The notes under the pieces were generated by a model. It saw nothing but the letters and a program-made list of their open reading frames with translations. It was not told where the DNA came from and searched no databases. Position numbers and translations under genes: made by a program. A stretch of 64,000 bases of DNA. Origin: an uncultured Bacteroidales bacterium. Lineage in GTDB: Bacteria; Bacteroidota; Bacteroidia; Bacteroidales; Paludibacteraceae. Positions 8,538-64,000 of this stretch are shown piece after piece. Within the stretch, counting starts at the first letter, position 1. Each line of letters starts with the position of its first letter. Location of the stretch: contig ONMV01000004.1 in NCBI GenBank assembly GCA_900319005.1, forward strand, positions 148,109 to 212,108, read 5' to 3'.

Positions 8538-9911
8538 ATGATAGAAAAACTGGAAATATTACGTCGCCGAGATATGCGCGACGTGTTCACTTTTACCATC
8601 GATCCCGCGGACGCCAAGGACTTCGACGATGCCATCTCGTTTGCCGTTATTGAAGAAGACGATAACCAATCACCAATAACCAATCACCTTTACCAGATCG
8701 GAGTCCACATCGCCGATGTCTCTTTCTATGTCCGCCCGGGTACCAAGATCGACGACGAGGCATACCAGCGGGGTACCTCTGTTTATCTTGTGGATCGGGT
8801 ACTGCCTATGTTGCCCGAAGAACTCTGTAACGACAAGTGTTCCCTCCGCCCCGACGAAGATAAACTCTGCATGTCCGTCATCTTTACTATGGACGCGGAC
8901 GCGCACGTGCTCAAATATAAAATATGTCGTACGGTTATCCGCTCCAATATGCGCCTTAATTATGACGAGGCACAAGCGATCATTGAGAATGCAGATCAAG
9001 CCTCTGGAGTCAAATCCGGTCTGTCAGGCGAAGCCGGTCTGTGCTCTGTTAGCGAAGCGGTCTGTACTCTTAACTCCCTTGCCAAGAAACTTCGTGCCGA
9101 ACGTATAGCAAAGGGTGCCCTCACTATCGAGCAGGACGAAATGCGATTCCGCCTGGACAAAGACGGCTATCCTACGGAGATTTATTTCGAGCATCCCAAC
9201 GAGGCACATCATCTCATTGAGGAGTTCATGCTCCTTGCTAACCGCACGGTCGCTACTGCCGTCGGAGCCGGAAGACCCTTTGTCTATCGTGTACACGATC
9301 TGCCCGATGCAGAAAAACTCGAAGAGGTCAAGAAATTCAAACGGCAATGTGCAATGACCGCGCGAATGAGACATCATCAGATCTCCGAAGAAGCGGTCCG
9401 CAGAGCTATCGACATGCTTACCATCCGAGCACAGTCAAAAGCGGTCTATTCAACCTATAACATCGGTCATTACGGACTCGCTTTCTCGCACTATACCCAT
9501 TTCACTTCCCCCATTCGCCGATACCCCGACCTCATGGTTCACCGCCTCGTCGAGAAATACATCCTGACAGGAAAGAAAGAGACCATGACCCGCGAAGAAC
9601 TCGAAGATAAATGCGAACATTGCTCAGCTTGCGAGCAGGAAGCAACCCAAGCCGAAAGGGACTCTATCAAGCTCTTCCAGGCAATGTGGATGAAGGAGCA
9701 TCTCAACGAAGTTCTGGATGGCTTCATTACCGGTATTACTGACTTCGGATTCTTTGTCCAACTCGAACAATCTCGCTGCGAAGGACTTGTTCATAGGATG
9801 ACCATCGAGCACCCCGAGGATTTCGTCCTCGGCGATAAAGTGACCGTAAAAGTGGTACGAGTGGATGTAAATCGCAGCCAAATTGACTTTGAATTGGTGG
9901 AAAATGAATAA
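8538..9911 (+). CDS. RNase R/RNase II-family exoribonuclease lacking N-terminal cold-shock domains
   Basis: 457 residues; family members are about 700. The RNB catalytic domain starts almost at once with the metal-binding motif 'IDPADAKDFDDA' (Asp22, 28, 30, 31) and runs to about 380 ('YGLAFSHYTHFTSPIRRYPDL'). A C-terminal S1 domain follows ('DGFITGITDFGFFVQL'). The two N-terminal cold-shock domains are absent, and no trace is visible in the 170 bp upstream, which hold a promoter. Two stretches look inserted relative to relatives as I remember them: residues 42-50 ('DNQSPITNH') and about 154-178; both are encoded by repeat DNA found elsewhere in the window. A second, complete RNase R may exist elsewhere. 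Confidence 0.85.
   Translation: MIEKLEILRRRDMRDVFTFTIDPADAKDFDDAISFAVIEEDDNQSPITNHLYQIGVHIADVSFYVRPGTKIDDEAYQRGTSVYLVDRVLPMLPEELCNDKCSLRPDEDKLCMSVIFTMDADAHVLKYKICRTVIRSNMRLNYDEAQAIIENADQASGVKSGLSGEAGLCSVSEAVCTLNSLAKKLRAERIAKGALTIEQDEMRFRLDKDGYPTEIYFEHPNEAHHLIEEFMLLANRTVATAVGAGRPFVYRVHDLPDAEKLEEVKKFKRQCAMTARMRHHQISEEAVRRAIDMLTIRAQSKAVYSTYNIGHYGLAFSHYTHFTSPIRRYPDLMVHRLVEKYILTGKKETMTREELEDKCEHCSACEQEATQAERDSIKLFQAMWMKEHLNEVLDGFITGITDFGFFVQLEQSRCEGLVHRMTIEHPEDFVLGDKVTVKVVRVDVNRSQIDFELVENE
8664..8688 (+). repeat. In-frame mini-repeat in the exonuclease gene
   Basis: Tandem 'aaccaatcacc' units encoding DNQSPITNH. The 16-mer atcaccaataaccaat recurs on the minus strand inside the DUF4861 gene (about 49763-49786). 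Confidence 0.7.
9018..9071 (+). repeat. Dispersed ~54-bp repeat, copy in rnr-like gene
   Basis: Two half-units built on ggtctgt...gcgaagcgg. It aligns to 61500-61551 inside ilvE with about 47 of 54 columns identical (two single-base gaps). Here it is read in the sense direction as coding sequence. Confidence 0.8.
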
Positions 9912-9936
9912 AAATGCAAAATTTTCAACCTTCTAT

Positions 9937-9967
9937 TTTCAATTATCATTTTTTTTTTGTAACTTTG
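9937..9967 (+). promoter_or_regulatory. Promoter of the outer-membrane protein/ABC/ruvB operon
   Basis: A strong TAACTTTG at 9960-9967 with a weak upstream box (TTTC near 9937-9940). The predicted start is about 15 nt before the ATG at 9988. Confidence 0.6.
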
Positions 9968-9987
9968 CGCCCAAAATACCCGTAACG

Positions 9988-10731
9988 ATGAAAAAACTCG
10001 TTTTATTGACTCTCCTTATTGTCTCTGGATGGACATTAGCGCACGCAGAAACTGTGTATTTGCGTACCGGTGAACGCGTGCAAGGAACAGTTATCTTTCA
10101 GAATGAAGAGGTGGTAATTATTCGTACTGAGGAGGGGCAGCGGTTCCAATATCCGCGTGCGGACGTCGAACTTGTTGCTACCGACGAGGAGACGCGCGAA
10201 TCTATGGAACCTGTGGACGTTGTGCCGCAGGAAAAAGAGATCAAAGTGACTAAAAAAGCCTCCATCCTTCTCGAATTGGCGGGAGGGGCTGCTATCAATG
10301 ACAAAGAGAGGGGGGGCGCTTTCAGCGTTGATCTGCTCGTCGGTTCGCATCATATAGGAGATCGGCATGTTTTTATCGGTGGTGGAGTAGGTTACCACGG
10401 ACTCTTTATCGGTAGCGGAAAATATAACTTCCTGCCTATTCAGGCAACCTTCCGAATGCCGCTCATCGAGCATAAACATGCGCCTGTCTTCGGGCTCTCT
10501 ATCGGCTATGGTATTGCCCTGAGCAAGACCTATACCGGCGGATTATACACCTCTATGGACTTGGGGTATCGCTATCAGATAAACCCCAAAACAGCGGTCG
10601 CTGTGCTCATATATACCAATTTCCAACATGCAAGTGTTGAAGTACCGGAAACCGTTGAGACAGAGACTTATATGAATAAAAAAGGCTGTAATCTCATTAC
10701 GCCGGGGCTTAAATTGGCGTTATACTTCTGA
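9988..10731 (+). CDS. Exported outer-membrane beta-barrel-like protein, function unknown
   Basis: 247 residues from ATG at 9988, just after a clear promoter box; the frame opens earlier at 9883 but that would precede the promoter. Signal peptide residues 1-19 ('LLTLLIVSGWTLAHA'). A small beta domain follows ('VYLRTGERVQGTVIFQNEEV', about 20-60), an acidic linker, and then alternating strands rich in Gly and aromatics ending in 'LKLALYF', the terminal aromatic typical of outer-membrane barrels. I do not recognise the family. Its stop overlaps the next start by one base. Confidence 0.7.
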   Translation: MKKLVLLTLLIVSGWTLAHAETVYLRTGERVQGTVIFQNEEVVIIRTEEGQRFQYPRADVELVATDEETRESMEPVDVVPQEKEIKVTKKASILLELAGGAAINDKERGGAFSVDLLVGSHHIGDRHVFIGGGVGYHGLFIGSGKYNFLPIQATFRMPLIEHKHAPVFGLSIGYGIALSKTYTGGLYTSMDLGYRYQINPKTAVAVLIYTNFQHASVEVPETVETETYMNKKGCNLITPGLKLALYF

Positions 10732-10910
10732 TGGCTAAACAGGCACGCGGACATAGAATCTCTATCATGCTCAACGATAGTGAGTTACGTGCTTTGGAAC
10801 GTTTCTGCGACAAGTACGGAGTGACGAATCGTAGCCGCCTCGTTCGGGAGGCGCTCATGCGTGCTATACTCAAGCGAATGGACAATGACCAACCAACTCT
10901 CTTTGACTGA
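10731..10910 (+). CDS. Ribbon-helix-helix DNA-binding protein
   Basis: 59 residues. The pattern 'HRISIMLNDSELRALERFC' (strand plus first helix) and 'VTNRSRLVREALMRAILKRM' (second helix with the usual SRLVREA turn) fits the MetJ/Arc/CopG fold, ending 'PTLFD'. It is co-translated on both sides: its ATG overlaps the stop of the barrel protein by one base, and its own stop overlaps the ATPase start (TGATG). I recall near-identical short proteins in other Bacteroidales, next to ABC ATPases. It could autoregulate this operon; inference only. Confidence 0.85.
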   Translation: MAKQARGHRISIMLNDSELRALERFCDKYGVTNRSRLVREALMRAILKRMDNDQPTLFD

Positions 10911-11599
10911 TGATTCGTGTAGAACATATTAATAAAGCCTTTGGTAAGCAGCAGGTTCTCAAGGATATAAATCTCGAAATACCAGCCGGACAGGTCCTGG
11001 GTTTGCTTGGACCCAACGGCGCCGGTAAATCGACGCTGATGAAGATTCTTATCGGGCTTTGGAAACCGGATTGCGGCTCCGTTTCTGTTCCGCCTCGTAT
11101 AGGTTATCTGCCTGAGAATAATCCCCTCTATGATGAAATGTACGTCATTGAGTATCTGCAATTTATGGCAAAAATGACAAATGCCAAATGTCAAATGACA
11201 GAAGTCTTAGATCTCATTGAGCGTGTAGGACTAAGCCCTGAGCGTCACAAACATATTCGTGAACTGAGCAAGGGTTATCGTCAGCGTGTCGGCTTGGCGC
11301 AAGCCTTGTTGGGAGATCCTCAGCTTCTCATCCTTGATGAGCCTACCACCGGTCTTGACCCTAACCAACTCGTCGAGATAAGGGGATTGATAAGAAATCT
11401 GACTTCTGATAGTTCGGAGGATGGTTTGAAAGCAAAGCGTTCTATCATCTTGTCCACTCATATTATGCAGGAAGTGAGAGAGATGTGCGACAGGGTTGTT
11501 ATCCTTGACCATGGCACTATCAGAGCCGATTACCCCATCGAACAAATTGCTGATTTGGAGGCCCTCTTTCATGAGGTGACCCAATATGAAAATGATTAA
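10910..11599 (+). CDS. ABC transporter ATP-binding protein, GldA-like
   Basis: 229 residues. Walker A 'GPNGAGKST' (about 36-44), Q-loop region 'GYLPENNPLYDEM', signature 'LSKGYRQRVGLAQALL' and Walker B 'LLILDEPTTGLDP' are all present. The 'LSKGYRQRVG' signature and 'PLYDEM' block are those of GldA/export-type ATPases. GldA proteins I know are near 300 residues, so the C-terminal extension is missing or short. A stretch 'AKMTNAKCQMTEV' is encoded by repeats of 'aaatgac' type (11167-11201). No permease gene is next to it. Confidence 0.85.
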   Translation: MIRVEHINKAFGKQQVLKDINLEIPAGQVLGLLGPNGAGKSTLMKILIGLWKPDCGSVSVPPRIGYLPENNPLYDEMYVIEYLQFMAKMTNAKCQMTEVLDLIERVGLSPERHKHIRELSKGYRQRVGLAQALLGDPQLLILDEPTTGLDPNQLVEIRGLIRNLTSDSSEDGLKAKRSIILSTHIMQEVREMCDRVVILDHGTIRADYPIEQIADLEALFHEVTQYEND

Positions 11600-11614
11600 A
11601 TGGAAAATGAATAA

Positions 11615-12634
11615 ATGGTAAATGACTTTGATATACGACAGCAGATGTCCGAGAAGGAGCAGGACAATGCCCTCCGCCCTTTATGCTTTGCCGATTTTGC
11701 GGGGCAAAGCAAAGTAACATCGAATCTCAAGATATTCGTTGAGGCGGCTAAATTGCGTGGTGAGAGCCTCGACCATGTGCTTCTGTTCGGTCCTCCGGGA
11801 CTTGGCAAAACGACACTCTCCAATATCATCGCCAATGAACTCGGAGTAGGTTTCAAAGTAACCTCAGGACCCGTACTCGATAAGCCCGGTGATCTCGCCG
11901 GTTTGCTCACCTCCCTCGAACCCAACGATGTCCTTTTTATCGATGAGATTCATCGTCTTTCCCCTATCGTTGAAGAGTATCTCTATTCTGCGATGGAGGA
12001 CTATCGTATTGATATTATGATAGATAAAGGTCCTTCTGCGCGGACTATCCAGATTGACCTCAACCGCTTCACTCTCATCGGTGCTACCACCCGTTCGGGT
12101 CTTCTTACCTCGCCTCTACGCGCGCGGTTCGGTATCAATTGTCACCTTGAGTACTACGATGCGGATATTCTGGCCGGTATTGTCAAGCGCTCGGCAAATC
12201 TTCTGAACGTCGAGATCAATGAGAAAGCTGCGGGAGAGATAGCGCGGCGCAGTCGTGGTACGCCACGTATAGCGAACGCACTCCTGCGACGTGTGCGCGA
12301 TTTCGCACAAGTCAAAGGAAATGGAACGATTGACCTTGAGATTGCGCAATACGCCCTTGAAGCACTTAATATCGACACCTTCGGTCTCGATCAGATAGAT
12401 AATAAATTGCTCTTGACCATCATTGATAAGTTCCGCGGCGGACCGGTCGGTTTGAATACTATCGCTACCGCTATGGGCGAAGATGCCGGCACGATAGAGG
12501 ACGTCTATGAACCTTATCTAATCAAGGAAGGATTCATCAAACGCACCCCCCGTGGACGCGAAGCTACTCTACTTGCCTACCAGCATCTCGGGAAAACACC
12601 CCTTTCTGCTGATGGACAACAGTCAATTTTCTGA
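11615..12634 (+). CDS. ruvB: Holliday junction branch-migration ATPase
   Basis: 339 residues, normal length. Hexameric motor that drives branch migration with RuvA and RuvC. Walker A 'GPPGLGKT' (59-66), Walker B 'LFIDEIHRL', sensor '[18 protein letters not shown]' and a C-terminal winged helix ('[27 protein letters not shown]'). It starts 15 bp after the ABC ATPase; that gap and the start region are made of 'aaatggtaaatga'-type mini-repeats, and the start ATG itself lies in one. Confidence 0.97.
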
Positions 12635-12687
12635 CGTATTACTTTCTCGTCGGCTTTATTACTGACAAATTGGCAGGTTTCGCCTAT

Positions 12688-12704
12688 TTGGCACATTATT
12701 TGAC
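12688..12704 (+). promoter_or_regulatory. Possible sigma-54-like element before grpE
   Basis: TTGGCAC-N5-TTGAC resembles the -24/-12 pattern, but the -12 GC is GA. No TAnnTTTG box was found in 12635-12732. It could equally be a heat-shock-type element; weak support. Confidence 0.25.
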
Positions 12705-12732
12705 ATTGTCAAAATAGTTAATTATATGTATT

Positions 12733-13290: not shown

Positions 13291-13431
13291 ATTCAAGTAC
13301 CATTTGGTCATGTACCATGTACCATTTATTGGTTCATTTGGCTATTTAGCCATTTGGCGCAGTAGATGATATAATGGTAAAATGACTAAATAACTAAATA
13401 AATGAACAAATTGTAAATGAACAAATTGTAA
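13291..13431. repeat. Mini-repeat-filled gap between grpE and dnaJ
   Basis: About 140 bp made of variants of accatttggt / aaatggtaaaatgac, including the doubled unit atgaacaaattgtaa near 13401-13431. No promoter box was seen. Confidence 0.7.
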
Positions 13432-14592: not shown

Positions 14593-14627
14593 GTCGCTGC
14601 GCGACGTTCCATAGTGAAAGCGTTAAG

Positions 14628-19183: not shown

Positions 19184-19187
19184 ACAT

Positions 19188-25220: not shown

Positions 25221-25310
25221 CAAATGATTTACGATTTACAAATTTACGATTTACGAATTATTTACGATTTATTTTTGATTTACGATTTGAAGCAGCAATC
25301 AATCGTCAAT
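25221..25310. repeat. Mini-repeat block between xth and lptB
   Basis: At least five tandem variants of tttacgattta. The block runs into the xth stop codon, so the last codons of xth are written in repeat sequence. No promoter box seen. Confidence 0.75.
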
Positions 25311-48758: not shown

Positions 48759-50015
48759 TTATCTCAGGTTCTTCGCCCATTTGCGGAGATAGGCGAACCA
48801 GTCCTCGACTGTTGTTGCTACGGGGTGGTTTTCTTTCGTTGCACCGACCACTGTCAGGAAGAAGTGACAGTGGTTGTTTGCGGCTTCGCCTGTTTGAGGG
48901 TTTGACGGACGATGTCCGTTAGTTTGAGGGGCTAATTTTAAGAGGCAGAGGTTGTTGCTCTTGTCGTGGACGAGGGAACCGGCATATTGTTTGGGGATAA
49001 AGACGGCGAGACCGACGGTCTCTTTGGCATATTTGGCGGAGTCGTTCACAGGCCAATCACGACCAAATGACGCCAAAAGGACACCATTTGGTAATTGACA
49101 ATTGATAATTGACAATTGAGAATTATTTCCAAGTCCTATGGTACCATCGGGTAAAACTATGGTGTCTGTAGGCCAGCCGCCCTTTGCAGGGATGGTCTGG
49201 ACTCCTGTACAGAGACCCTCAACGGGTTCGGAGAGGAAGACATCGCAACGCATATCCCGATGTCCCGCTTGCATGGTGTATTGGACGGTGAGGTTTACTA
49301 GTTGAGAGTTTAAAGTTGAGAGTTGAGAGAAGTCGTTTAGTTGAGAGTTATTAAGTGGTACTTGCCAGCCTTTGACGGCGACCTCTATCGTGGCACTATT
49401 CTTCGTTTGTTTAACAATGCGCTGAGAACGAGAGGCAACTTTGTCAAAGTGGCAAAGTTTGCCTGTTTGGGCATTCTGCCCTGTTTGAAGGTTTGCGGCT
49501 TCGCCTGTTTGAAGCGTTTGCCAGTACTTGACAGAACCGACACCGACGGTACCGGAGACACGGAGAATATCATCGCCATATCCGGCAGCTAAGAGGCTGT
49601 CGTTGGGGTACCAGTGACTTTGAGCGAGTTCGAGTTGCGGTTTGCGTTTACAATAGGGATCGATAGTTTGTTTCTTATCGAAATAGATGCGGTATGCCAT
49701 CAGTTCGGACTCCACCGCTACGCCGTGGTGGTGGAGGGAGTGGTAAGTGTCCGGTAAAGATGATTGGTTATTGGTTATTGGTGATAGTTGTTCTGTCCAC
49801 TCGGTGATGGGGTAGCAATGACGCATTTTTTTGCCCTCATAGAGGACGGCATAGCCCTCTCTGGTCGAATCGGAAGGTGTTCCGATTCGCCAGAAAGAGG
49901 TGGTTACCCTCGGGCTGCAGCCCGTGAGCAAGAGTAATGGTAGCGAGATCACGAGATCACGTGACCACGAGACCACGACCGATTTTATATGATTAGTTAA
50001 TCTTGACATTCTCAA
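48759..50015 (-). CDS. DUF4861-family lipoprotein, riddled with mini-repeat-encoded inserts
   Basis: 418 residues. Lipobox 'LLLTGC' after a hydrophobic stretch (about 22-33). Family blocks: 'ESELMAYRIYFDKKQTIDPYCKRKPQLELAQSHWY', 'GYGDDILRVSGTVGVGSVKYW' and 'DWFAYLRKWAKNLR' at the end. DUF4861 proteins occur in pectin-degradation loci, and a GH28 gene overlaps here by 23 bp. At least five low-complexity stretches look inserted: SPITNNQSS, LQTGEAANLQTGQNAQTG, NNSQLNDFSQLSTLNSQL, NNSQLSIINCQLPN and PQTGEAANN. Their DNA matches the mini-repeats of nearby gaps, and the 22-bp unit encoding QTGEAAN occurs twice (48876-48897 and 49491-49512). Confidence 0.8.
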   Translation of the reverse strand: MRMSRLTNHIKSVVVSWSRDLVISLPLLLLTGCSPRVTTSFWRIGTPSDSTREGYAVLYEGKKMRHCYPITEWTEQLSPITNNQSSLPDTYHSLHHHGVAVESELMAYRIYFDKKQTIDPYCKRKPQLELAQSHWYPNDSLLAAGYGDDILRVSGTVGVGSVKYWQTLQTGEAANLQTGQNAQTGKLCHFDKVASRSQRIVKQTKNSATIEVAVKGWQVPLNNSQLNDFSQLSTLNSQLVNLTVQYTMQAGHRDMRCDVFLSEPVEGLCTGVQTIPAKGGWPTDTIVLPDGTIGLGNNSQLSIINCQLPNGVLLASFGRDWPVNDSAKYAKETVGLAVFIPKQYAGSLVHDKSNNLCLLKLAPQTNGHRPSNPQTGEAANNHCHFFLTVVGATKENHPVATTVEDWFAYLRKWAKNLR

Positions 50016-51493: not shown

Positions 51494-51515
51494 GACGTAT
51501 TAAATTATTAATTAT

Positions 51516-51627
51516 TATTGACGATTTACGGATTTACGATGTACGATTTATTGACGATTTAAATTTATTGACGATTTAAATTTATTGACGATTTACGGAT
51601 TTACGATGTACGATTTATTGACGATTT
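51516..51627. repeat. Mini-repeat block with a 45-bp perfect direct repeat
   Basis: 51516-51560 and 51583-51627 are identical (45 bp) and are separated by two copies of attgacgatttaaattt. The second copy runs into truA, so its last codons (RNRQ and stop) are written in repeat. Confidence 0.85.
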
Positions 51628-52437: not shown

Positions 52438-53968
52438 GGTTGTTGATTTCTGGAGAGAGCTCTGCTTTGTATGCGATGAGTGCTCCTCCGCCGATGAGTA
52501 CTATGCTGCGGAGTAGACTGTCCGCCCAAATATTCATCGTCGGTGCGAACCGACACCATAACGCGTTGACGAAAAAGAGCACTAACAAAAGAAGCAGGAT
52601 GAGCCACCATCTTTTTTCTACCACCCGGATTTGACAGAGAGGCACCACTAATGCGATCGTCAGAGCAATATACAGGCCGTAGGAAAGGAGATTGCTCATA
52701 GCAGCGCCTTCCATACCGTAAAGCGGAACCAAATAATTATTCAGTATCAATGCGCTGATGGTCAGCGCTAACGAGATAAACAGACTGAAAGCAAAGAACC
52801 GGCTGTAGTTCAGCGCGGTACTGCAAATAGTGAATGTCCCCAAAATCAATTGGCTGACACCCAAGATGAGCACTACATTCTTCGCTTGAGCGAAGGTGGC
52901 ACCATTCGGTAAGATATGAAAAATAAGGTCGATATTCACCCACATGGCTAATAAGATGAACCCTCCGATAAGGAGCATATTCCGGGTGACTTGGCTGATG
53001 AGATGACTACATTCCTCAGGGTTCTGATCCTTGATAGCCCGCGCCAGTTGAGGCGAAGCGATAGCCGAGACGGAGCGGTTCGGGATGCTGACCATCACCG
53101 CCATGTATGTTGCTATCGCAAAGATACCGGTGTTGTCCAGACCCATCTTAGCGGTCACGAAGAACGATGAGAGTGTCGGAGCCAAAACCGATGTGAGGGC
53201 AGAGATGAAGAGGAAACCCGTGTAGATGAGATAGCGACGTACGAGATCCTTGTTCTCACGAAGGAAAGACCAGTCCGGGCGCAAACGAATCTGTTTGAGC
53301 GAGAAGAAATAGATTATGTTGATCGTCGCCGCTACAGCGTAGTTGATGCAAATACCGATGACGAGTCCGTCCATCGACACGATGCGGAAAGCATACAACA
53401 AGTATATCGCCAACAACCCTACTCGCACAATCAATTCGCGTACCGCACGAGGCACTACGATGTGCATCAGCACATTGCAGGTTGATTCACAAATCGTCTG
53501 GTAGAGCATAAAAAATGCCAGCGGAAGGACGAAATAATAGTACTCCACGAAGAGCGGCGACTTATCGCCGAACCATGCTCCTAACGGTACATGGCAAGCC
53601 CAGTAAACGATAGCGAAAAGGACAAAACCTATAAACGGAATAGTCAGCGCCCAGAAGAAGAAACCGTGGTCATCATCGGACCGTCTTTCGGACAGATAGA
53701 CCGTTTCACAGATAGACCGTTTCACTGTTAGACCGTCCTTCGGGCGGATAGATGTGAAATACGGGTAGAAACGAATGATGGAGGCGTTGGTGCCTAACTG
53801 CGCCAAGCCGATGAAGAGGGTAGCGGCATCGATAAGTACCCGTGTTAACCCGATTTCCTCGGTTGTGAGGAAACGGGTTAACACGAAGAACGTGGAGGCA
53901 ACGCCTACAGCGATGCCTAAATAGGTCACTATCGTACCACGTATCGATTGTTTAGCGATGACGCCCAA
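52409..53968 (-). CDS. Polysaccharide/lipid-linked oligosaccharide flippase-like membrane protein
   Basis: 519 residues with about 14 membrane helices, starting 'MGVIAKQSIRGTIVTYLGIAVGVASTFFVLTRFLTTEEIGL', the usual Wzx/MATE-like opening in Bacteroidales. Between 'FYPYFTS' and 'HGFFFWALT' sits a hydrophilic insert of about 25 residues (IRPKDGLTVKRSICETVYLS and on) encoded by a 16-bp tandem repeat (53693-53724). The substrate is probably a surface glycan precursor. Confidence 0.82.
   Translation of the reverse strand: MGVIAKQSIRGTIVTYLGIAVGVASTFFVLTRFLTTEEIGLTRVLIDAATLFIGLAQLGTNASIIRFYPYFTSIRPKDGLTVKRSICETVYLSERRSDDDHGFFFWALTIPFIGFVLFAIVYWACHVPLGAWFGDKSPLFVEYYYFVLPLAFFMLYQTICESTCNVLMHIVVPRAVRELIVRVGLLAIYLLYAFRIVSMDGLVIGICINYAVAATINIIYFFSLKQIRLRPDWSFLRENKDLVRRYLIYTGFLFISALTSVLAPTLSSFFVTAKMGLDNTGIFAIATYMAVMVSIPNRSVSAIASPQLARAIKDQNPEECSHLISQVTRNMLLIGGFILLAMWVNIDLIFHILPNGATFAQAKNVVLILGVSQLILGTFTICSTALNYSRFFAFSLFISLALTISALILNNYLVPLYGMEGAAMSNLLSYGLYIALTIALVVPLCQIRVVEKRWWLILLLLLVLFFVNALWCRFAPTMNIWADSLLRSIVLIGGGALIAYKAELSPEINNQIVKTLSRQ
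53693..53724. repeat. 16-bp perfect tandem repeat inside the flippase gene
   Basis: cagatagaccgtttca occurs twice back to back; a decayed third copy (ctgttagaccgtcc) and a half copy before (gaccgtctttcgga) flank it. Confidence 0.8.
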
Positions 53969-54000
53969 AATAATTTACAATTTAATCATTTACTATTTGG

Positions 54001-55245: not shown

Positions 55246-55269
55246 AAATTTAAACTTATTTAAATTTCT

Positions 55270-55330: not shown

Positions 55331-55338
55331 TTTTGTTA

Positions 55339-55923: not shown

Positions 55924-55969
55924 GATTATATAATTAAAAATTAAAAATTACGAATTAAAAATTTAAATA
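55924..55969. repeat. aattaaaaatt mini-repeat block
   Basis: Between ribE and the FKBP gene: four variants of aattaaaaatta. The same block type fills 56615-56653, and a copy lies inside lepB (63364-63398). Confidence 0.75.
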
Positions 55970-56614
55970 TCAATTCTTTAAAATTGCCGCATAGCGTGCC
56001 ATGTACTTGCCGAGGATGTCGAATTCGATATTGACGACGGTACCGGCTTCGATGTATTTGAAGTTGGTATTCTCCTCGGTGTACGGGATGATACATACGG
56101 ATACGTAGCCTTTGTCGCCTTTCACGTCGGGTTCGCAAGCGGTCAGACTGACGCCGTTGATAGTCACCGAACCTTTGTCTACGCAGAAATAGCCGCGCTC
56201 CACCATCTCTTTGGTTGAGTCGTATTCGAAGCGGTAGTACCAAGACCCGTCGGTCTCGTGCGCATCGACACAAACGGCTTTCTGATCCACGTGTCCTTGC
56301 ACGATGTGTCCGTCCAAACGACCGCCCATCATCATCGAGCGCTCCACATTCACCCAATCGCCGACTTTCAACAGGTCCAGATTGGTCAAACGCAACGTCT
56401 CCTGCATCGCCGTAACCGTATATACATTTACCATTTCACCATTTACCATTTGGTCATTTGTCTTCACCACCGTCAGACATACGCCGTTGTGTGCAATCGA
56501 CTGATCGATACTCAGCGCCTCTCCGAACGGGTTGCGAAGCGTGAAATGTTTATTCGTTTGCTCGGTCTCTATCTTCACGACCTGAGCCATGGTTTCTACA
56601 ATTCCTGAAAACAC
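55970..56614 (-). CDS. ribE: Riboflavin synthase, alpha chain
   Basis: 214 residues, against about 200 for the family. Two lumazine-binding barrels: 'MFSGIVETMAQV' and 'SIAHNGVCLTVV' in the first, 'GHIVQGHVDQKAVC' and 'KGSVTINGVSLTAC' in the second. Dismutates two lumazines into riboflavin. Between 'CLTVV' and 'VYTVTAMQETL' sits an insert of about ten residues (KTNDQMVNGEMVN) encoded by repeats of accatttaccattt (56424-56460). Confidence 0.94.
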   Translation of the reverse strand: MFSGIVETMAQVVKIETEQTNKHFTLRNPFGEALSIDQSIAHNGVCLTVVKTNDQMVNGEMVNVYTVTAMQETLRLTNLDLLKVGDWVNVERSMMMGGRLDGHIVQGHVDQKAVCVDAHETDGSWYYRFEYDSTKEMVERGYFCVDKGSVTINGVSLTACEPDVKGDKGYVSVCIIPYTEENTNFKYIEAGTVVNIEFDILGKYMARYAAILKN

Positions 56615-56653
56615 GATAGTATAAATTAAAAATTAAAAATTACAAATTAAAAA
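56615..56653. repeat. aattaaaaatt mini-repeat block
   Basis: Four to five tandem variants of aattaaaaatta between the two minus-strand genes; no promoter seen. Confidence 0.75.
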
Positions 56654-58093
56654 TTATTTCTTGAAGTATTTGCCCACCACAGGTAGTCCGCTAAGCGGGA
56701 AATCGCGACGGGTCATTACGATGAGATACAAGGCAATGAGGAGTGTCCCTATTCCCATCATTATCCACATATTGAGTGACGTGTGCAGCCGGAGAACGTA
56801 ATAGATAGCCAGCAGACCCAGCGTCAGCGCCGTATAGCCGCCTATTCGCTTCAAGTCATAGGGGATCGGGGCTTTTTTCTGGCCGATGAAATAGGACAGG
56901 AGCATGATCACGAAATAGCATACCAGACTACTGCCGCAGGATGCCCAATAACCAATCAACGGCACACCGACAATCTGGAGCACTAAAGTGATACCTAAGC
57001 CGATCAACGAGAAATAGGCTCCCCATTTGGTCTCGTCCGTCAGTTTGTACCAGAACGAGAGATTGAAATAGATACCTTGGAAAACATACGTCCATAGCAC
57101 AACCGGCACGATCTTCAAGCCCTCCCAATAAGCGCTTGAGACGATGTACCGGAAGATATCCAGGTAGAAGATCACACCCAGCAGAATCAAATACGAGAAG
57201 ATGATGTAGTACTTCATTGCGTCAGCGTACGCTTCGACGGACTGACGGTCTTTGTGTTTGGCGAAAACAAACGGTTCGTACGCATAGCGGAAAGCCTGCG
57301 TGAACATCATCATCACCATCGCAACCTTGAAGCATGCACCGTAAATACCGAGTTGTGCCTGTGCATCTTCGCCTGTGTAGAGATAAGGGAAGAGGATGCG
57401 ATCCAGCGTCTGGTTCATGATTCCTGCTACACCCAGTACCAACAACGGCAGCGAATAACGCAGCATCTCCTTGAGCACCGCGCCGTCAAAATAGCCGCCT
57501 CTCGGCATCGTGAACGGCAGCAGGCACAGGGTCTGGATAGTAGTAGCAAGGATATTGCTGAGGAACACGTAGAACACATCGTTCTTGCCTAAAACCACCA
57601 GGAAGAGAATATTGAATCCGATATTCAGCACCACAAACAGCAGTTTCAGTGCCGCAAAGACGAGCGGACGTTTCTGGTAGCGCAGGTACGCAAAGGGAAT
57701 GCACGCGAATGCATCTATTGCAACCGTCACCGCCATCATAGCAATGAACTCCGAATGGCCGGAATAACCTAACACCACACTGATAGAACCTTGGAATAGG
57801 ACACACAGCACCGCGAAAAGAGTACTCGTACTCAGCAGGGTGATATATGCCGTCTTATACACGCTCTTGGCATCGTAGTCCTCGCGGTTGGCAAAACGGA
57901 AAAAACCCGTCTCCATGCCATATGTGAGGATTACAAGTAGCAGTGCTGTCCAAGCGTACAGATTGGTGACGATTCCATAGTCATCTGTTCGGGCGAGTAC
58001 ATAGGTATAGAGCGGCACCAACAGGTAGTTCAGAAACTTACCTATTATTGAACTCAATCCGTAGATGGCGGTATCCTTCGCCAAGGATTTCAT
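56654..58093 (-). CDS. Oligosaccharide flippase (Wzx/MATE-like)
   Basis: 479 residues from ATG at 58093 ('MKSLAKDTAIYGLSSIIGKFLNYLLVPLYTYV', a standard opening). Starting at 58123 would add MENDKMVNNS, which is written in 'aaatggtaaatgac' repeat, so I reject it. About 14 membrane helices. Moves lipid-linked glycan units across the inner membrane. Second flippase in 6 kb. Confidence 0.87.
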   Translation of the reverse strand: MKSLAKDTAIYGLSSIIGKFLNYLLVPLYTYVLARTDDYGIVTNLYAWTALLLVILTYGMETGFFRFANREDYDAKSVYKTAYITLLSTSTLFAVLCVLFQGSISVVLGYSGHSEFIAMMAVTVAIDAFACIPFAYLRYQKRPLVFAALKLLFVVLNIGFNILFLVVLGKNDVFYVFLSNILATTIQTLCLLPFTMPRGGYFDGAVLKEMLRYSLPLLVLGVAGIMNQTLDRILFPYLYTGEDAQAQLGIYGACFKVAMVMMMFTQAFRYAYEPFVFAKHKDRQSVEAYADAMKYYIIFSYLILLGVIFYLDIFRYIVSSAYWEGLKIVPVVLWTYVFQGIYFNLSFWYKLTDETKWGAYFSLIGLGITLVLQIVGVPLIGYWASCGSSLVCYFVIMLLSYFIGQKKAPIPYDLKRIGGYTALTLGLLAIYYVLRLHTSLNMWIMMGIGTLLIALYLIVMTRRDFPLSGLPVVGKYFKK

Positions 58094-58130
58094 CGAGTTA
58101 TTTACCATTTTGTCATTTTCCATGTACGAT

Positions 58131-58796: not shown

Positions 58797-58803
58797 CTTT
58801 TAT

Positions 58804-58914
58804 ATTTACGATTTACAAATTTACGATTTTACGATTTATTTACGATTGAATTAAATTGTACCATTGACTAAATCGTCCATCAATCGTACCTCGTCAATCG
58901 TCCAATCGTCAATC
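58804..58914. repeat. ~111-bp intergenic repeat, copy 1
   Basis: Aligns over its whole length with 61067-61177 at about 90% identity; both copies contain gaattaaattgta and end tcgtcaatc. Internally made of tttacgattta and tcgtccatcaatcgta units. It fills the whole gap between rsmI and the next gene. Confidence 0.85.
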
Positions 58915-58917
58915 TTT

Positions 58918-59487
58918 TTATCCAAACCTTCTGTGCAGGGTCACGATGAACTGCTGATACGAGTTACTCTCGGTGTCCCATTGGAAATGTTTGCCGATAT
59001 ACTCCATCGCCTCGTTGAACGAATTCAAAGCGTTCAGTTCGGTCAGGGTGCGTTGCATCAACTCGGCGTTCTGACCAAAGAGTTCACGTTGGTACAAGAA
59101 TCGGTCGCCCAGCGAGATGGCCTGGCGGATGTCATCCACCGCCTTGCCATATACGGCGGCTTTCGGAGAAGACTGTTCTTCTGTGGCTGGCTCCTCGACC
59201 GTAGAATCTTCTTTTGCAGGCTCTACTTCTACCGAGGAAACTTCCGGAGTTTCGGGAATAACCGGTTCCGGCTCTTTCGTATTTTCGATATCGCTTGATA
59301 CCGGTGTCTCAACGGGTTTCTCGCTAACAGGAGCCGGTATTTCAACGACTTTCTCCACTACCTTCTCTACTACTTTTTCTACCACCTGCGGCTCAGGTAA
59401 CGGGCGGTTTTTCAACTCCGCTACCTCAGCCTCCAATGTGGCGATTCGAGCTTCCAACTGCTCAAAATATTTGATTACCTCTTCCAT
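58918..59487 (-). CDS. Conserved coiled-coil protein of unknown function
   Basis: 189 residues. N-terminal coiled coil ('YFEQLEARIATLEAEVAELKNR', 5-27), then three tandem VVEK units (about 35-48, a 12-bp DNA repeat), an acidic Pro/Glu-rich linker (50-110), and a conserved C-terminal domain ('DDIRQAISLGDRFLYQRELFGQNAELM...FNEAMEYIGKHFQWD' region) that I recall in Bacteroidales hypothetical proteins. No signal peptide. Role unknown. Confidence 0.8.
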   Translation of the reverse strand: MEEVIKYFEQLEARIATLEAEVAELKNRPLPEPQVVEKVVEKVVEKVVEIPAPVSEKPVETPVSSDIENTKEPEPVIPETPEVSSVEVEPAKEDSTVEEPATEEQSSPKAAVYGKAVDDIRQAISLGDRFLYQRELFGQNAELMQRTLTELNALNSFNEAMEYIGKHFQWDTESNSYQQFIVTLHRRFG

Positions 59488-59514
59488 GAAGAATTCTCAA
59501 TTCTCAATTATTAA

Positions 59515-61056
59515 TTACTTTGTAGCGTCCTCGAGTTTGTTCATCATAGCGAACATGAAGATCGCTGCAATCAGACAAACGCCGATGAACACGCTCCATA
59601 CGAGCCACAACGGTAAGTTACCCCAGAGGAATCCACCTACTGATACCAGGAAGTTACCGAGTGCAGTAGCGACGAACCAACCGCCCATCATCATTCCTTT
59701 ATACTGAGGAGGTGCTACTTTGCTCACAAACGAGATACCCATCGGGCTGAGCAGCAACTCTCCGAAAGTCAATACCAAATACGTCAAAATCAGTACGTTC
59801 GAGTTCACCATCATCGGACTCTCACCGGCCTCCAGAGCTGCCTCTTGTGCGTTAGGCGTTAGCAGACCCACCGAGCAGAAAGCCATCACTGCATAAGCTA
59901 CAGCTGCAACCAGCATACCATACGCGATCTTACGCGGAGCAGAAGGTTCTTTGCCTTTCGCTGCCAACGAACCGAAAATAGCCATGCTCACCGGAGTCAA
60001 AGCAACAACATAGAAGGGGTTGAACTGCTGGAAGATAGGAGCGGTAATCCCCATCTCTGCAGGATGGTTTAAGTATTGGTAGCCCAAAAGACACAATACT
60101 GCAACACCGGTGCAACTCCAGATCATCTTAGCCTTTCGTTCGCCTTCACCGAAGATACCAAACAGCGCATAAACACCGATGGCAACCAGAACCAAGTTCC
60201 AGATATTGAATAACATCGTTTGTGCGCCGGTTACTACCGGATTAACGAACTTATCTGCGAAATAGGTCAGCGTCAAACCGTTCTGGTGGAATGCCATCCA
60301 GAAGAAAATCACTACTGCAAATACGAGACAAAGAGCTACGATACGTTTCTTGGTCTGCTCAGGACTTAATTCATCTACTTTCTGACCGCTCGCTGCAGCC
60401 TGCTTGGCGGTGTTCTCCACGTGCTTGAACCAAGGACGGCAAGCGTAATAAATAGCGATACTCAAAATCAGCGATGCACAAGCTACAGCAAACGCAAAGT
60501 GATAACTGTCATTCACGCTCACGCCTAAACTCTCCTGTGCCCACGCCATGATTTTTACAGCTGCCGTCGGAGCAAACATAGCGCCGATATTGATTGCCAT
60601 GTAGAACAGAGAGAAAGCAGCGTCACGACGGTCAGAGTACTTCGGATCGTCGTATAAGTTACCTACCATCACTTGCAAGTTACCCTTGAAGAGACCCGTT
60701 CCGAACGAGATCAGCACCAACGCACCGATCATGCCGGACATAGCAACAGCCGTACTGCCGTACTCAATACCTCCCATCGGGATAGCCAAAAGCACGTAGC
60801 CCAGGAACATAATAATGATACCGATCGTCACGCATTTACCGTAACCGATTTTGTCGGCGATGATACCACCGATCAACGGCAGAAAATACACGAACGCCAA
60901 GAATGTGGAATAGATAGCGCCTGCTGCACCTGCTGACAGGCCAAAATTAGCGCGCAAGAAAAGCGCAAACACGGCTAACATCGTGTAGTAGCCGAAACGC
61001 TCGCCTGTGTTGGCTAATGCCAACGCGAACAATCCTTTGGGTTGATTCTTAAACAT
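59515..61056 (-). CDS. POT/PTR-family proton-coupled peptide transporter
   Basis: 513 residues, about 14 helices. The signature 'ANTGERFGYYTMLAVFALFL' (helix 1) is the ExxERFxYY motif with the first Glu replaced by Asn, which alters a residue normally linked to proton coupling. 'FLPLIGGIIADKIGYGK' and 'GTGLFKGNLQVMVGNLY' are further family blocks. Imports di- and tripeptides. Confidence 0.9.
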   Translation of the reverse strand: MFKNQPKGLFALALANTGERFGYYTMLAVFALFLRANFGLSAGAAGAIYSTFLAFVYFLPLIGGIIADKIGYGKCVTIGIIIMFLGYVLLAIPMGGIEYGSTAVAMSGMIGALVLISFGTGLFKGNLQVMVGNLYDDPKYSDRRDAAFSLFYMAINIGAMFAPTAAVKIMAWAQESLGVSVNDSYHFAFAVACASLILSIAIYYACRPWFKHVENTAKQAAASGQKVDELSPEQTKKRIVALCLVFAVVIFFWMAFHQNGLTLTYFADKFVNPVVTGAQTMLFNIWNLVLVAIGVYALFGIFGEGERKAKMIWSCTGVAVLCLLGYQYLNHPAEMGITAPIFQQFNPFYVVALTPVSMAIFGSLAAKGKEPSAPRKIAYGMLVAAVAYAVMAFCSVGLLTPNAQEAALEAGESPMMVNSNVLILTYLVLTFGELLLSPMGISFVSKVAPPQYKGMMMGGWFVATALGNFLVSVGGFLWGNLPLWLVWSVFIGVCLIAAIFMFAMMNKLEDATK

Positions 61057-61066
61057 AATTTCAAAT

Positions 61067-61177
61067 ATTTACGATTTATATATTTACGATTTAGCGATTT
61101 ATTTACGATTGAATTAAATTGTACAATTGACCAAATTGTCCATCAATCGTACCTTGTCAATCGTCTAATCGTCAATC
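61067..61177. repeat. ~111-bp intergenic repeat, copy 2
   Basis: See 58804-58914. Here the end overlaps the last codons of ilvE (VIDD and stop are written in gattgacgattag). Confidence 0.85.
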
Positions 61178-62235
61178 ACATCACACCATCCGTGCTTATC
61201 CTCCGCTCTACCGAATTGTATATCCCGCAAGGCATGATATAATTTCGTCAATACCGGTCCCGGCTCGTCGCCCAAGTGATAGATCTTGTTGTTCTCCGGA
61301 TCAATCACTTTGCTCATCGGACTGATCACGCACGCTGTTCCGCACGCTGCCGCTTCGCTCATCTCCTCCAACTCCTCCAGTCGGATATGCCTTCTCGTCA
61401 CTTTCATCCCCATATCCTTCGCCAAGGTCATCAGACTGTCATTCGTGATACTCGGCAAAATAGCTGAGGATCTCGGCGTCAGATACTCAATTGTGCTTAG
61501 GTCTGTCAGCGTAGCGGTCTGTGCTCTGTCAGCGTAGCGGTTTGTGCTCTTCTTGATCCCAATAAAATTCGCAGCCGAACACTCATCAATATACCGATGG
61601 TACTTGGCGTCGAGGAATAAACAATCCATGCCTTGCGCATGAGCAGGCTCGGTGGCACGGAACGACGATGCGTAGTTACCGCCCACTTTGAATGTTCCCG
61701 TTCCGTAAGGCGCCGCACGATCCACATGCCTGTTCACCACAAACGTCGTGCAATGAAACTTACCCGGGTAGTACGGACCGATAGGCGATGGGATCACTAT
61801 AAACTCAAAATCCCTTCCCGGACCGACACCCAAACGCGGCGTTGTGCCAATCAGCAGAGGTCGGAAATACAGTGTTGCGTCTGTGCCGTAGGGCGGCAGA
61901 AAATCCATGTTTTTCTCCAACGCTAACCGGATCGCTTTCCCGAATAACTCCTCCGGAACAGGCTGCATATACAGCCCCTCCGCACTCCTCGCCATGCGTT
62001 TGGCATTCTCCCGCCAACGGAAAATACGTATCTTCCCATCTACTCCTCGAAAAGCTTTAAGCCCCTCAAATGCCTCCTGACCATATTGCAGACAAGTAGC
62101 CGATACATGCAAATGCAGGTACTTGTCTTTGGTCGCGTATGGTTCTTCCCACGCGCCATCATGATACGCTGAGCGCACAATAAAATCCGGCTCAGTGTAA
62201 TGAAATCCAAGTTTACTCCAATCAATCTCTTTCAT
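61165..62235 (-). CDS. ilvE: Branched-chain amino acid aminotransferase
   Basis: 356 residues from ATG at 62235 (a TTG one codon earlier is possible). PLP Lys183 in 'TGTFKVGGNYA'; 'YGQEAFEGLKAFRG', 'FRPLLIGTTPRLGVGP' and 'CGTACVISPMSKV' are class IV/BCAT-II blocks. Last step of Val, Leu and Ile synthesis. Between 'SAANFIGIK' and 'YLTPRSSAILPSITN' is an insert of about 20 residues (229-247, KSTNRYADRAQTATLTDLS) encoded by the dispersed 54-bp repeat. Overlaps wbqC by 14 bp. Confidence 0.95.
   Translation of the reverse strand: MKEIDWSKLGFHYTEPDFIVRSAYHDGAWEEPYATKDKYLHLHVSATCLQYGQEAFEGLKAFRGVDGKIRIFRWRENAKRMARSAEGLYMQPVPEELFGKAIRLALEKNMDFLPPYGTDATLYFRPLLIGTTPRLGVGPGRDFEFIVIPSPIGPYYPGKFHCTTFVVNRHVDRAAPYGTGTFKVGGNYASSFRATEPAHAQGMDCLFLDAKYHRYIDECSAANFIGIKKSTNRYADRAQTATLTDLSTIEYLTPRSSAILPSITNDSLMTLAKDMGMKVTRRHIRLEELEEMSEAAACGTACVISPMSKVIDPENNKIYHLGDEPGPVLTKLYHALRDIQFGRAEDKHGWCDVIDD
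61500..61551 (+). repeat. Dispersed ~54-bp repeat, copy in ilvE
   Basis: 52 bp aligning to 9018-9071. It is in the same plus-strand orientation, hence antisense to ilvE but sense to the exonuclease gene. The encoded peptides share no similarity, so the duplication happened at DNA level. Confidence 0.8.
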
Positions 62236-62746
62236 CAAACAACGTATCTAATATACTTATTTCCGTTTGCCACGGATGTTTATCTGTCCAAATCTGTCCG
62301 CTCCAGTCCTGCGTTCTCCTTTGTACATTGTACATCGTACATCGTACATCGGTCGGCCTCTCCCGTTTCAGCAAAGCTACCAGCGTAGTGTTCATCTCGT
62401 CATTGAGATCCAGCAGCCATTTGTACTCTTTCTCATAGAACGGTTTAAGATAGTCCGCGAAATACATGAAATAGGGCGTGTGTTGGTAAGCGCTCACGAG
62501 GGTGATCCAGTGTTGGTGTTGCCAGCGAGTCTGGTAGCTGATCTGAATATCCCGCGTCAATTGTTTATGTTCCACTTTCTTCACCGGTATCGTCAGTCGC
62601 ACTAACTCGCCTTTGGCGTCGCGGATGAGTGCCCGATTGCGAAACGTCTGTTTCTCAAACGTCTCCATCTGCTCGATCGTCGCAGGCTCGCTCATTAGCG
62701 CCTCCATATACGACCTCGGCGGCAAATATGCAGTAGGTAATACCAT
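62222..62746 (-). CDS. WbqC-like family protein
   Basis: 174 residues, against about 200 for the family. 'VLPTAYLPPRSYMEALM' at the N terminus, 'FRNRALIRDAKGELVRLTIPVKK' and 'YFADYLKPFYEKEYKWLLDLN' are WbqC blocks. WbqC proteins occur near LPS/glycan genes; role uncertain. A stretch 'TDVRCTMYNVQRR' is read from tandem tgtacatcg-type repeats (about 62320-62350), the same type seen at 37676-37712. Confidence 0.82.
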   Translation of the reverse strand: MVLPTAYLPPRSYMEALMSEPATIEQMETFEKQTFRNRALIRDAKGELVRLTIPVKKVEHKQLTRDIQISYQTRWQHQHWITLVSAYQHTPYFMYFADYLKPFYEKEYKWLLDLNDEMNTTLVALLKRERPTDVRCTMYNVQRRTQDWSGQIWTDKHPWQTEISILDTLFDERD

Positions 62747-62775
62747 TCGTCAATAATCTTCAATCGTCAATCATT

Positions 62776-64000
62776 CTATTGCTTAGCGCGCATTCCTATG
62801 CGCGAGAAGCGAATAGAGTGTGTGTCCTTATCCAAACTCAGCCAAATAAACACAGGTCGTCCGACGATGTGATCCTCCGGCACAAATCCCCAATAACGGC
62901 TGTCCGCACTGTTATGCCGGTTATCACCCTGCATCCAATAGTAATCCATCTCAAACTCGTACTCCTCGCCAATCTTCATCGGCTTGAACTCATATGCCTC
63001 CGCAATGCGTTTATACATCCAGTAGTTCTCCTCGGTAATCATGATCTTTTCCCCTTTGCGCGGAATATAAATCGGTCCGTAGTTATCCCGCGTCCACTCG
63101 TTATGTCCTAACGGATACACCGCTCCGCCGCGTTCTTCCGGCTCTACCATCACTTCCTCCACGTGCGGGTTCTTCGCCAACTCCGCCTTCATTCCTTCCG
63201 TCAACGGGAAATGCCAAGTCGTTGCATCTATCTGCATTCTGTCTGCCTCGCTCACACCTAATTTCTCCAGGTATTTTGCACCGAACATATGTCCGTCTGT
63301 CCGAACAAGATAATTCAACTGCAACCCCTCTCTCTCCGGCTCACGCTGCCATTCGGCATCGCTCATTTTTAATTTTTCATTTTTAATTTTTAATTTCGTA
63401 TATACGACATTGTCGATTATACGCAAACTGTCTCCCGGTTCGCCCACACAGCGCTTTACGTAGTTCTCTCTTCTATCCACCGGACGCACGATGATCTCGC
63501 CGAACACATCCTTCCGCGCTCTGATCACTTGCTCACCGTAATAATATTTGAGTGTATAGTAATCGGGGTTTTGCATATTCAGACACACTGTGTCTCCTGC
63601 CGGAAAATTGAACACCACTATATCCCCTTTCTTCGGACTGGTCCAACCTTTGAGACGCTTGTACTCCCAATGCGGATGGTCCAAATAACTCTTTCCTCCT
63701 CCTAACCATGCCGGCATCGTATGTTGTACCAACGGCATACTCAGCGGTGTCTGCGGTACTCGGGCACCGTAAGCCATCTTGCTCACATACAGGAAATCCC
63801 CGACCCGCAAAGTCTTCTCCAGACTCGAACTAGGGATCTGATAATTCTGGAAAATATACAGATTGATGAAGTACACCGCCACTAATGCAAACACGATTGC
63901 GTCGATCCATGAGCAGAGGGTGTAGAGGGCAGGTTGGGTGTCTTTGTATTTCCGCCACCAACTATAGTTGATGTACCGCGTAGTGAACATATCTACGATC
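62776..64000 (-). CDS. lepB: Signal peptidase I (5' end outside window)
   Basis: The frame stays open through an ATG at 63990 to the window edge, and residues there ('IVDMFTTRYINYSWWRKY') align with the region before the second membrane helix of Bacteroidales LepB, so the true start lies beyond 64000. Catalytic Ser in 'YQIPSSSLEKTL', Lys in 'YVKRCVGEPGD', and the late 'YWMQGDNRHNSADSRYWGFVP' box. Cuts signal peptides at the periplasmic face. An insert (KLKIKNEKLKMSD) about residues 196-209 from the ATG is read from aattaaaaatt repeats (63364-63398). 29-bp gap to wbqC. Confidence 0.93.
   Translation of the reverse strand, partial: IVDMFTTRYINYSWWRKYKDTQPALYTLCSWIDAIVFALVAVYFINLYIFQNYQIPSSSLEKTLRVGDFLYVSKMAYGARVPQTPLSMPLVQHTMPAWLGGGKSYLDHPHWEYKRLKGWTSPKKGDIVVFNFPAGDTVCLNMQNPDYYTLKYYYGEQVIRARKDVFGEIIVRPVDRRENYVKRCVGEPGDSLRIIDNVVYTKLKIKNEKLKMSDAEWQREPEREGLQLNYLVRTDGHMFGAKYLEKLGVSEADRMQIDATTWHFPLTEGMKAELAKNPHVEEVMVEPEERGGAVYPLGHNEWTRDNYGPIYIPRKGEKIMITEENYWMYKRIAEAYEFKPMKIGEEYEFEMDYYWMQGDNRHNSADSRYWGFVPEDHIVGRPVFIWLSLDKDTHSIRFSRIGMRAKQ

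Follow-up and report, generated by a model that had tools for sequence, protein, structure and literature searches.

Introduction

Short repeats carried in frame by bacterial genes are known from the Rickettsia palindromic elements (RPEs) and the protein-coding palindromes of Wolbachia, which lie between genes and also within conserved housekeeping genes, where they are tolerated (PMC10969869, PMC2229807). Here we describe a comparable phenomenon in a 64,000-nucleotide stretch of DNA (the window; positions 148,109 to 212,108 of contig ONMV01000004.1, assembly GCA_900319005.1) from an uncultured Bacteroidales bacterium of the Paludibacteraceae, in which conserved genes, among them those for riboflavin synthase (ribE), IlvE and an RNase R-like protein, contain short repeats whose words recur elsewhere in the genome. 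The phenomenon is real and is of a known kind, that of repeats tolerated in frame inside genes; it is unusual in comprising several classes, in being rich in 7-bp units (heptads), in the filling of the same loop by different repeats and in its scale.

RPEs are palindromes of ~105-150 bp that form defined families and encode a peptide, and they have also been reported in RNase P RNA and tmRNA (PMC10969869, PMC2229807). The repeats studied here resemble RPEs in occurring both between genes and in frame in conserved genes, in being absent from the orthologues of relatives (at ribE, a flippase gene and the first of two sites in the RNase R-like gene) and in entering a structural RNA gene, that for RNase P RNA. 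They differ in being short tandem arrays or small hairpins rather than 100-150 bp palindromes with terminal inverted repeats: the inserts are ~15-150 bp long, belong to several unrelated classes and are mostly non-palindromic degenerate heptads, and one loop holds different words in different species.

Repeats with 7-bp units have also been reported. The TAACTGA repeats of Beggiatoaceae, Cyanobacteria and five Bacteroidetes are direct repeats that are patchily distributed, mainly intergenic and near start codons (PMC4679880), and a short tandemly repeated repetitive sequence (STRR) lies within a promoter region of the cyanobacterium Nostoc (PMC2670836). The tandem 7-bp units and their patchiness between species are shared features, but one unit dominates there whereas many coexist in each genome here; moreover, forward intragenic copies of TAACTGA are expected to terminate the gene (PMC4679880), whereas dozens of open reading frames (ORFs) here contain the stop-free strands of their arrays. 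Among long simple sequence repeats with units of 5-11 bp, heptamers are the commonest in most genomes, and slippage has been proposed for them (cited in PMC4679880); unlike those repeats, the units found here are dispersed words common to several loci and not exact expansions.

Repetitive extragenic palindromic sequences (REPs) are small dispersed palindromes, some of them intragenic, and the CGTC REPs have no dedicated transposase (PMC3733652). Small dispersed palindromes, some within genes, are present here too; compared with REPs and their paired forms (REPINs), the main class here is a non-palindromic direct repeat, and matches to RAYT transposases are missing or weak in nearly all of the 37 genus genomes compared. 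The original prediction, a reading of the window made from its letters, held that no such system was known in Bacteroidales. Among the literature matches listed, nothing concerns in-frame repeats in Bacteroidales, the nearest being a miniature inverted-repeat transposable element (MITE) of Porphyromonas gingivalis that bears a minisatellite, that is, tandem repeats in a mobile element (PMC4596501); it is a single family from another Bacteroidales genus. The claim of novelty survives only narrowly, given the published RPEs and Wolbachia palindromes, the intragenic REPs and the heptad repeats of cyanobacteria, Beggiatoaceae and some Bacteroidetes.

Repeat inserts in conserved genes of the window

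The window belongs to a genome of 2.18 Mb in 41 contigs, 85% complete and of the gut Paludibacteraceae type (G000, in which the window is G000:C23:148109-212108; genomes, contigs and loci are labelled G, C and L). Gene identities come from Pfam, the flippase match falling below its Pfam cut-off. The original prediction placed in-frame repeat DNA in seven conserved genes, and at every position that it named the repeats lie within one open frame. In the RNase R-like gene, an array of heptad-type ACCAATC units occupies the tip of a beta-hairpin in the RNB domain (site 1, 8662-8688, plus strand), and a second segment consists of two copies of a 23-bp unit with a GCGAAGC-type mini-hairpin (site 2, 9018-9071, plus strand). 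The six other genes are read from the minus strand. An array of 16-bp units (CGGTCTATCTGTGAAA) fills a loop of the flippase (53692-53757), where other repeats stand at the same slot in relatives L037 and L090; AAATGGT heptads replace the (I)EGD turn of ribE (56424-56460); and two copies of a 23-bp unit with a GCTACGC mini-hairpin lie in a hairpin loop of ilvE (61500-61551). There is an ATGTACG heptad array in wbqC (62320-62352) and an AAATTAA heptad array in lepB (63364-63398), the latter common to L033 of genome G004 and similar in L047.

The DUF4861 gene has five such sites: an ACCAATA heptad array (site 1, 49763-49786), CTTCAAACAGG repeats with small hairpins (site 2, 49467-49517), where relative L042 has a heptad array, a CTCAACT heptad array (site 3, 49296-49349), an AATTNTC heptad array that is also present in relative L085 (site 4, 49088-49124), and CAAAC repeats with small hairpins (site 5, 48867-48926). 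An AAATGAC-type heptad array in an ABC transporter ATPase domain (11172-11200, plus strand), absent from the original prediction, was recognized from the window's own sequence only. Three kinds of repeat can be distinguished: arrays of ~3-5 degenerate 7-bp units, units of 16-23 bp built on tiny hairpins, and C/G-rich hairpins. Hairpin sequences of the second kind are GCGAAGC, GCGTAGC and CCGAAAGG-like, and their loops are of the GNA type.

The same loops in relatives

Relatives were compared in three sets of alignments: six of the seven named genes with at most 20 genus relatives each; 14 genes of the region with at most 27 close-clade relatives, from which best matches below 45% identity were excluded and eight short or broken ORFs dropped (one DUF4861, five fkpB, one lpsbio and one pot); and RNase R with 29 relatives. 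Across the genus, the gene neighbourhood of the window's 3' part is conserved. At ribE, the AAATGGT heptads produce an excess of 8 residues that is lacking in 24 of 26 aligned proteins and is shared, near letter for letter, only by L036 of genome G018. At the flippase slot, repeats are present in 3 of 26 proteins (the window, L037 and L090), all three different, and the loops of L084 and L046 are somewhat longer and non-repetitive. RNase R site 1 corresponds to a hairpin tip (EDG-YQIGVHIAD) that is short in 21 of 29 relatives, the other eight (L158, L160, L162, L166, L168, L172, L173 and L176) carrying repeats of several types, which here and at ilvE were assigned by eye from the DNA.

The ilvE loop differs in length and sequence throughout the genus. 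Among 27 proteins, the 23-bp hairpin unit occurs in three (the window, L036 and L087), heptads in three (L085, L088 and L090), C/G-rich hairpins in six (L037, L043, L045, L047, L081 and L091) and a GCCGG..CAGCC type in about four (L035, L038, L044 and L083), and the remaining loops are minimal or short. Loop length at RNase R site 2 likewise varies among relatives, and at ilvE, lepB, wbqC, DUF4861 and this second RNase R site the variation is genus-wide, with no single clean empty site. A clean contrast between insert and empty site is thus found only at ribE, the flippase and RNase R site 1; it is there that the predicted shorter loops of relatives are borne out, whereas elsewhere the loops simply vary. 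The inserts are lineage-specific and recurrent at the same loops, and often unrelated repeats fill one loop in different species, which speaks against the single mini-repeat process that had been suggested.

The alignments of 14 genes contain 104 minority segments of at least 5 residues in 37 slots. A periodicity z above 4 was found for 25 of them, against 18 of 1369 control segments; eight of the 25 come from one gene, encoding an acidic linker (26 segments in total), without which the count is 17 of 78. The commonest lag among the periodic segments is 7 (6 segments), followed by 15 (5 segments).

By rsmI, the closest relatives are nearly all metagenome-assembled genomes (MAGs) by title, many of them from goats, sheep, deer, buffalo and horses, as might be wanted by an explanation through metagenome assembly or binning. 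Such an artefact is hardly credible: the frames remain open, genic and intergenic words agree (see below), and orthologous inserts recur in separate genome records, for ribE in G000 and G018 and for lepB in G000 and G004.

Placement in protein structure

Solved riboflavin synthases, aminotransferases and RNase R, all distant homologues, have gaps where the ribE, ilvE and RNase R site 1 inserts stand. In AlphaFold2 models of ilvE and RNase R built from genus alignments, the ilvE insert is placed between strands 223-229 and 249-253, with a predicted local distance difference test (pLDDT) score below 50 at residues 235-242, and the first RNase R insert is placed, at low pLDDT, between strands 32-38 and 51-60. 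The second RNase R insert (~residues 161-178) has pLDDT below 50 at 158-166 and then enters a modelled helix (166-191). Separately, the RNase R-like protein of this clade (window 8439-9911, L158-L186) seems to begin at the RNB domain and is ~430-500 aa as cut, with no N-terminal domain match in Pfam; some distant members of the genus are 600-690 aa long.

Repeat arrays throughout the genome

A census of non-overlapping arrays with Tandem Repeats Finder on 464 kb of G000 gave 184 arrays, against 16 in one first-order shuffle of the same DNA. According to a simple ORF picker, which over-calls (93% coding), 83 lie within ORFs, 78 between them and 23 at edges. Arrays of period 7 or 14 number 59, against 3 in the shuffle, and are divided into 32 genic, 18 intergenic and 9 at edges; with the edge arrays excluded, their density is ~7.4 per 100 kb in genic DNA and ~56 in non-coding DNA, so that they are denser outside genes and yet more numerous inside. 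When 20 selected array-bearing ORFs were compared with Pfam, 18 were matched, and several arrays sit within the matched domain. The hosts include IleRS-type and SerRS-type synthetases, rRNA adenine dimethylase, a UPF0004/radical-SAM/TRAM protein, pseudouridine synthases, a PrmC-type methyltransferase, RibD, a biotin/lipoate ligase-family protein, SecDF, a PolyA_pol/HD nucleotidyltransferase and an Mrp-like NTPase.

Heptad arrays in genes might act as contingency loci for phase variation, switching genes through 7-bp slips, and a slip of one unit would indeed change the frame, 7 not being a multiple of three. We regard this as very improbable here: the units are few and degenerate, arrays occur in RNase P RNA too, and many of the hosts are housekeeping genes (ribE, ilvE, lepB and those for the IleRS- and SerRS-type synthetases, rRNA adenine dimethylase, RibD and SecDF).

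RNase P RNA

A process acting on DNA would be expected to reach RNA genes as well. The gene for RNase P RNA was located in 53 of the 61 genomes of the genus. Of the 30 loci read (that of G000 included), 2 have a heptad array, both at one place in the alignment: units of AATGCTT type extend over 72 nt in G019 (L192, G019:C135:1511-1984) and units of ATTTCTA type over 25 nt in G023 (L193, G023:C99:15486-16005). In cyanobacteria, RNase P RNA is similarly entered by STRRs, which are heptamers.

Repeat words are shared between loci

The original prediction also held that the repeats within genes are of the kind that fills intergenic gaps, and the array census and the sharing of words between loci agree with this. 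Among genic G000 arrays with a period not divisible by three, 35 of 54 share a 14-mer with another locus (controls, 13.1% of 1000) and 24 of 54 share one with non-genic DNA (controls, 2.3% of 1000). For the 12 inserts of the window, 13-mers recur in 61 bins of their own genome in 400 kb (control, 8.9) and in 26 bins of further genomes in 758 kb (control, 13.0); the array at DUF4861 site 4 has 13-mers in common with 17 further 300-nt bins of the same 400 kb of G000. In the DNA sampled, searches for the repeat units in the window's own and sister genomes, as had been suggested, find the words inside and outside genes. Sharing is also greater within genomes than between them: across 28 syntenic windows, for arrays more than 1.5 kb apart, 56 of 1551 same-genome pairs have an 11-mer in common compared with 477 of 36450 different-genome pairs, and none of 500 permutations of the genome labels reaches the observed same-genome value.

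Local strand slippage offers another origin, in which native loop sequence expands in place and words are alike merely through common composition. It fits the acidic linker gene (58918-59487), whose units expand locally in relatives by ordinary triplet-type slippage. For 24 inserts, we compared the insert words with the native flank of relatives that have the empty site; all four from the acidic linker gene have rank 0, their units matching the native flank of relatives, and so effectively serve as a positive control for slippage. The other 20, some of which are orthologous to each other, do not stand out: in 12 of them, an insert's own words match better than the words of other inserts do on average. 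Likewise contrary to expansion in place, and the clearest case of a repeat common to different loci, is an 18-bp array of G021. It is present in frame in two unrelated genes that lie 8.5 kb apart, in the flippase loop of one and the RNase R loop of the other, and its strict pattern is matched only in G021 and not in the other 11 of 12 genomes. A lone 18-bp unit stands just 5' of an ATG in G021, whose downstream frame is ExbD-like by eye.

In favour of slippage, mismatch repair is described in a survey of repeats as efficient for loops of 1-3 bases and declining with loop length (PMC4060949); against it, MutS1 is above cut-off in 56 of 61 genus genomes, and insert words are shared with intergenic DNA. 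Slippage as the general source is therefore quite unlikely. The predicted DNA-level process, genome-wide and tolerated in loops, is thus supported, with arrays far above the shuffle, whereas local expansion is not supported for the 20 inserts tested.

A REP-like element of 35 bp (core ATTGACGAGGTACG) is dispersed, within the DNA sampled, over seven intergenic places, that in the window (58880-58914, minus strand) included, and, in frame, one Mrp-like gene (L059); the genic copy is stop-free because it is reversed. Other loci of this element are L058, L064, L065, L068 and L071, and several copies lie a few bases from a stop codon.

Abundance in the genus and the order

The repeat process is genus-wide, and one heptad class is patchy across Bacteroidales. 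Per 100 kb, G000 has 15 heptad arrays and the close clade has 26-30. Two sets of further loci, from the genus or from Paludibacteraceae, have 8 and 20, and two mixed sets from Bacteroidales, in which Prevotella is frequent, have 7-8; shuffles have 0-0.6. The load differs by window, with 13 arrays in L085 and none in L092. Counts per genome of matches to AATTNNNAATTNNNAATT (AATT heptads), overlapping ones included, range from 0 to 385 across the 61 genomes of the genus, G000 having 295, and from 0 to 650 across 295 Bacteroidales genomes, 263 of which have at least one. The reversed pattern TTAANNNTTAANNNTTAA was discarded as not a clean control, as some genomes are rich in it; in G011, TTAA heptads are matched 68 times and AATT heptads 2 times. 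Each genome thus has many unit sequences, and AATT and TTAA loads differ between genomes, which we read as genome dialects.

Mechanism and candidate genes

We propose, with a probability of roughly 0.68, that these inserts arise by ectopic copying of short repeats, selection then retaining those in tolerant turns. Short repeat words would seed the genome, and short stretches would be copied from locus to locus by ectopic template switching or gene conversion through micro-homology, a step that would need no dedicated REP-type transposase. Copies would land more or less everywhere, and purifying selection would retain mainly those that are free of stops, keep the frame in their net length and lie in exposed turns that tolerate extra residues. 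The copying step is itself a proposal, for a dispersal of words, a recurrent filling of loops and a lower density in coding DNA that are established. As seven leaves a remainder of one when divided by three, the three frames of a strand of a heptad array all encode a single periodic peptide with a repeat of 7 residues; one stop-free strand is therefore open at any entry frame, which helps explain the tolerance of heptads inside genes.

Several observations weigh against this proposal or limit it. No insertion event between strains was seen; among the windows compared, no two are more than 83% identical at the DNA level, and for this reason target-site changes and events at base resolution are unreadable. 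The genomes in which inserts were read are MAGs or species representatives, and the windows of two isolates by title (L126 and L149) have no heptad array. With 21% of the genome sampled, 19 of the 54 genic non-triplet arrays share no 14-mer, and the window's inserts share 13-mers with 53 bins of genus relatives in 376 kb (control, 21.2, which takes in homologous sites); dialects therefore overlap, with part of the vocabulary in use across the genus. In G032 (L158), a run akin to the G021 array, but different from it, stands at the RNase R slot. The GCCGG..CAGCC type of ilvE insert was rejected as a dispersed element, since it occurs in 4 of 61 genomes and only once in each. Same-genome sharing of words could stem in part from a genome-specific bias in slippage. 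Finally, none of the candidate enzymes searched for over the genus (RAYT, reverse transcriptase, SbcD and MutS) explains the repeats.

Each class could instead be a non-autonomous mini mobile element that depends on a transposase acting in trans, whether RAYT/TnpA-REP-like or of another type, as has been proposed for RPEs and REPs. The dispersal of the 35-bp element over eight places is consistent with this, as are the GNA-loop mini-hairpins in the 16-23-bp units, such hairpins being very stable in single-stranded DNA. Relative to one shuffle, GAA triloops are in excess, 24 against 5 in the clade and 12 against 1 in G000; some other loops are equally so, and in the loop census of the clade it is just individual loops, namely GAA, CAAG, TAAA and some more, that stand out. 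Stems of at least 6 bp are 1.3-1.7 fold above one shuffle, in the distant set too. However, heptad arrays have no fixed ends or length, inserts replace native codons rather than splitting them neatly, and no target-site duplication was seen among windows at most 83% identical.

Nor do the candidate enzymes favour a transposase. In a search of 61 genomes, Y1_Tnp matches were found in 16 of the 37 genus genomes, all weak save in G027, and RAYT was rejected as the mover; none was found in the other 21, several of which are 96-98% complete, and across the 37 genomes presence does not track heptad load. G000 has two weak matches, within frames of ~350 aa (G000:C30:45542-45841 and G000:C34:122931-123191). 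Taken together, mobile elements seem an unlikely source, and a moving enzyme of another kind is possible.

Other candidate genes were rejected as well. Reverse transcriptase (RVT_1), as a diversity-generating retroelement or retro-copying would require, occurs in 14 of 61 genus genomes, not in G000 (85% complete), and shows no significant association with AATT-heptad load. Much of the genus may lack SbcD, a hairpin nuclease subunit that is above cut-off in 10 of 61 genus genomes, many of them incomplete; its loss would fit tolerance of hairpins, but its link to AATT-heptad load is not significant (median 10 with and 42 without; p 0.12, uncorrected for kinship). Loss of MutS was dismissed on the distribution of MutS1 given above. 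We suggest only tentatively, and consider rather doubtful, that the copying of words is transposase-independent and still active, in species-specific dialects, into tolerant loops of protein and RNA genes, driven by a Bacteroidales enzyme or repair pathway.

The inserts show one way in which core enzymes take in non-coding repeat DNA, the same loop being filled by unrelated repeats across species, and they provide a natural map of insertion-tolerant loops. Some loop residues of housekeeping proteins are recent imports of DNA and not conserved protein, which affects alignments, phylogenies and annotation. If word-copying is true, loops of core enzymes would turn over through imported intergenic repeat DNA and not through point mutation. 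As the heptad class is patchy over Bacteroidales, an order prominent in gut microbiomes, comparison of rich and poor sister genomes could serve in the search for a mechanism.

Intergenic arrays of the window

Several arrays of the window lie between genes. On the minus strand, an AATTAAA heptad array (55932-55967) is 8 nt from a start codon, a TTTACGAT array (58805-58837) is 8 nt from the start codon of rsmI, and an AAATTAA heptad array beside ribE (56623-56656) has a unit identical to that of the lepB array. An ATTTACG/17-bp array (51517-51617) and an ATTTACG array (25223-25288) have no strand assigned. For 71 non-genic or N-terminal arrays of G000 (periods 7, 8, 14-16 and 21), 32 are at most 12 nt from the upstream stop codon and 12 are at most 12 nt from a start codon. 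In some gaps of G000, one array stands behind the stop codon and a second ahead of the next ATG.

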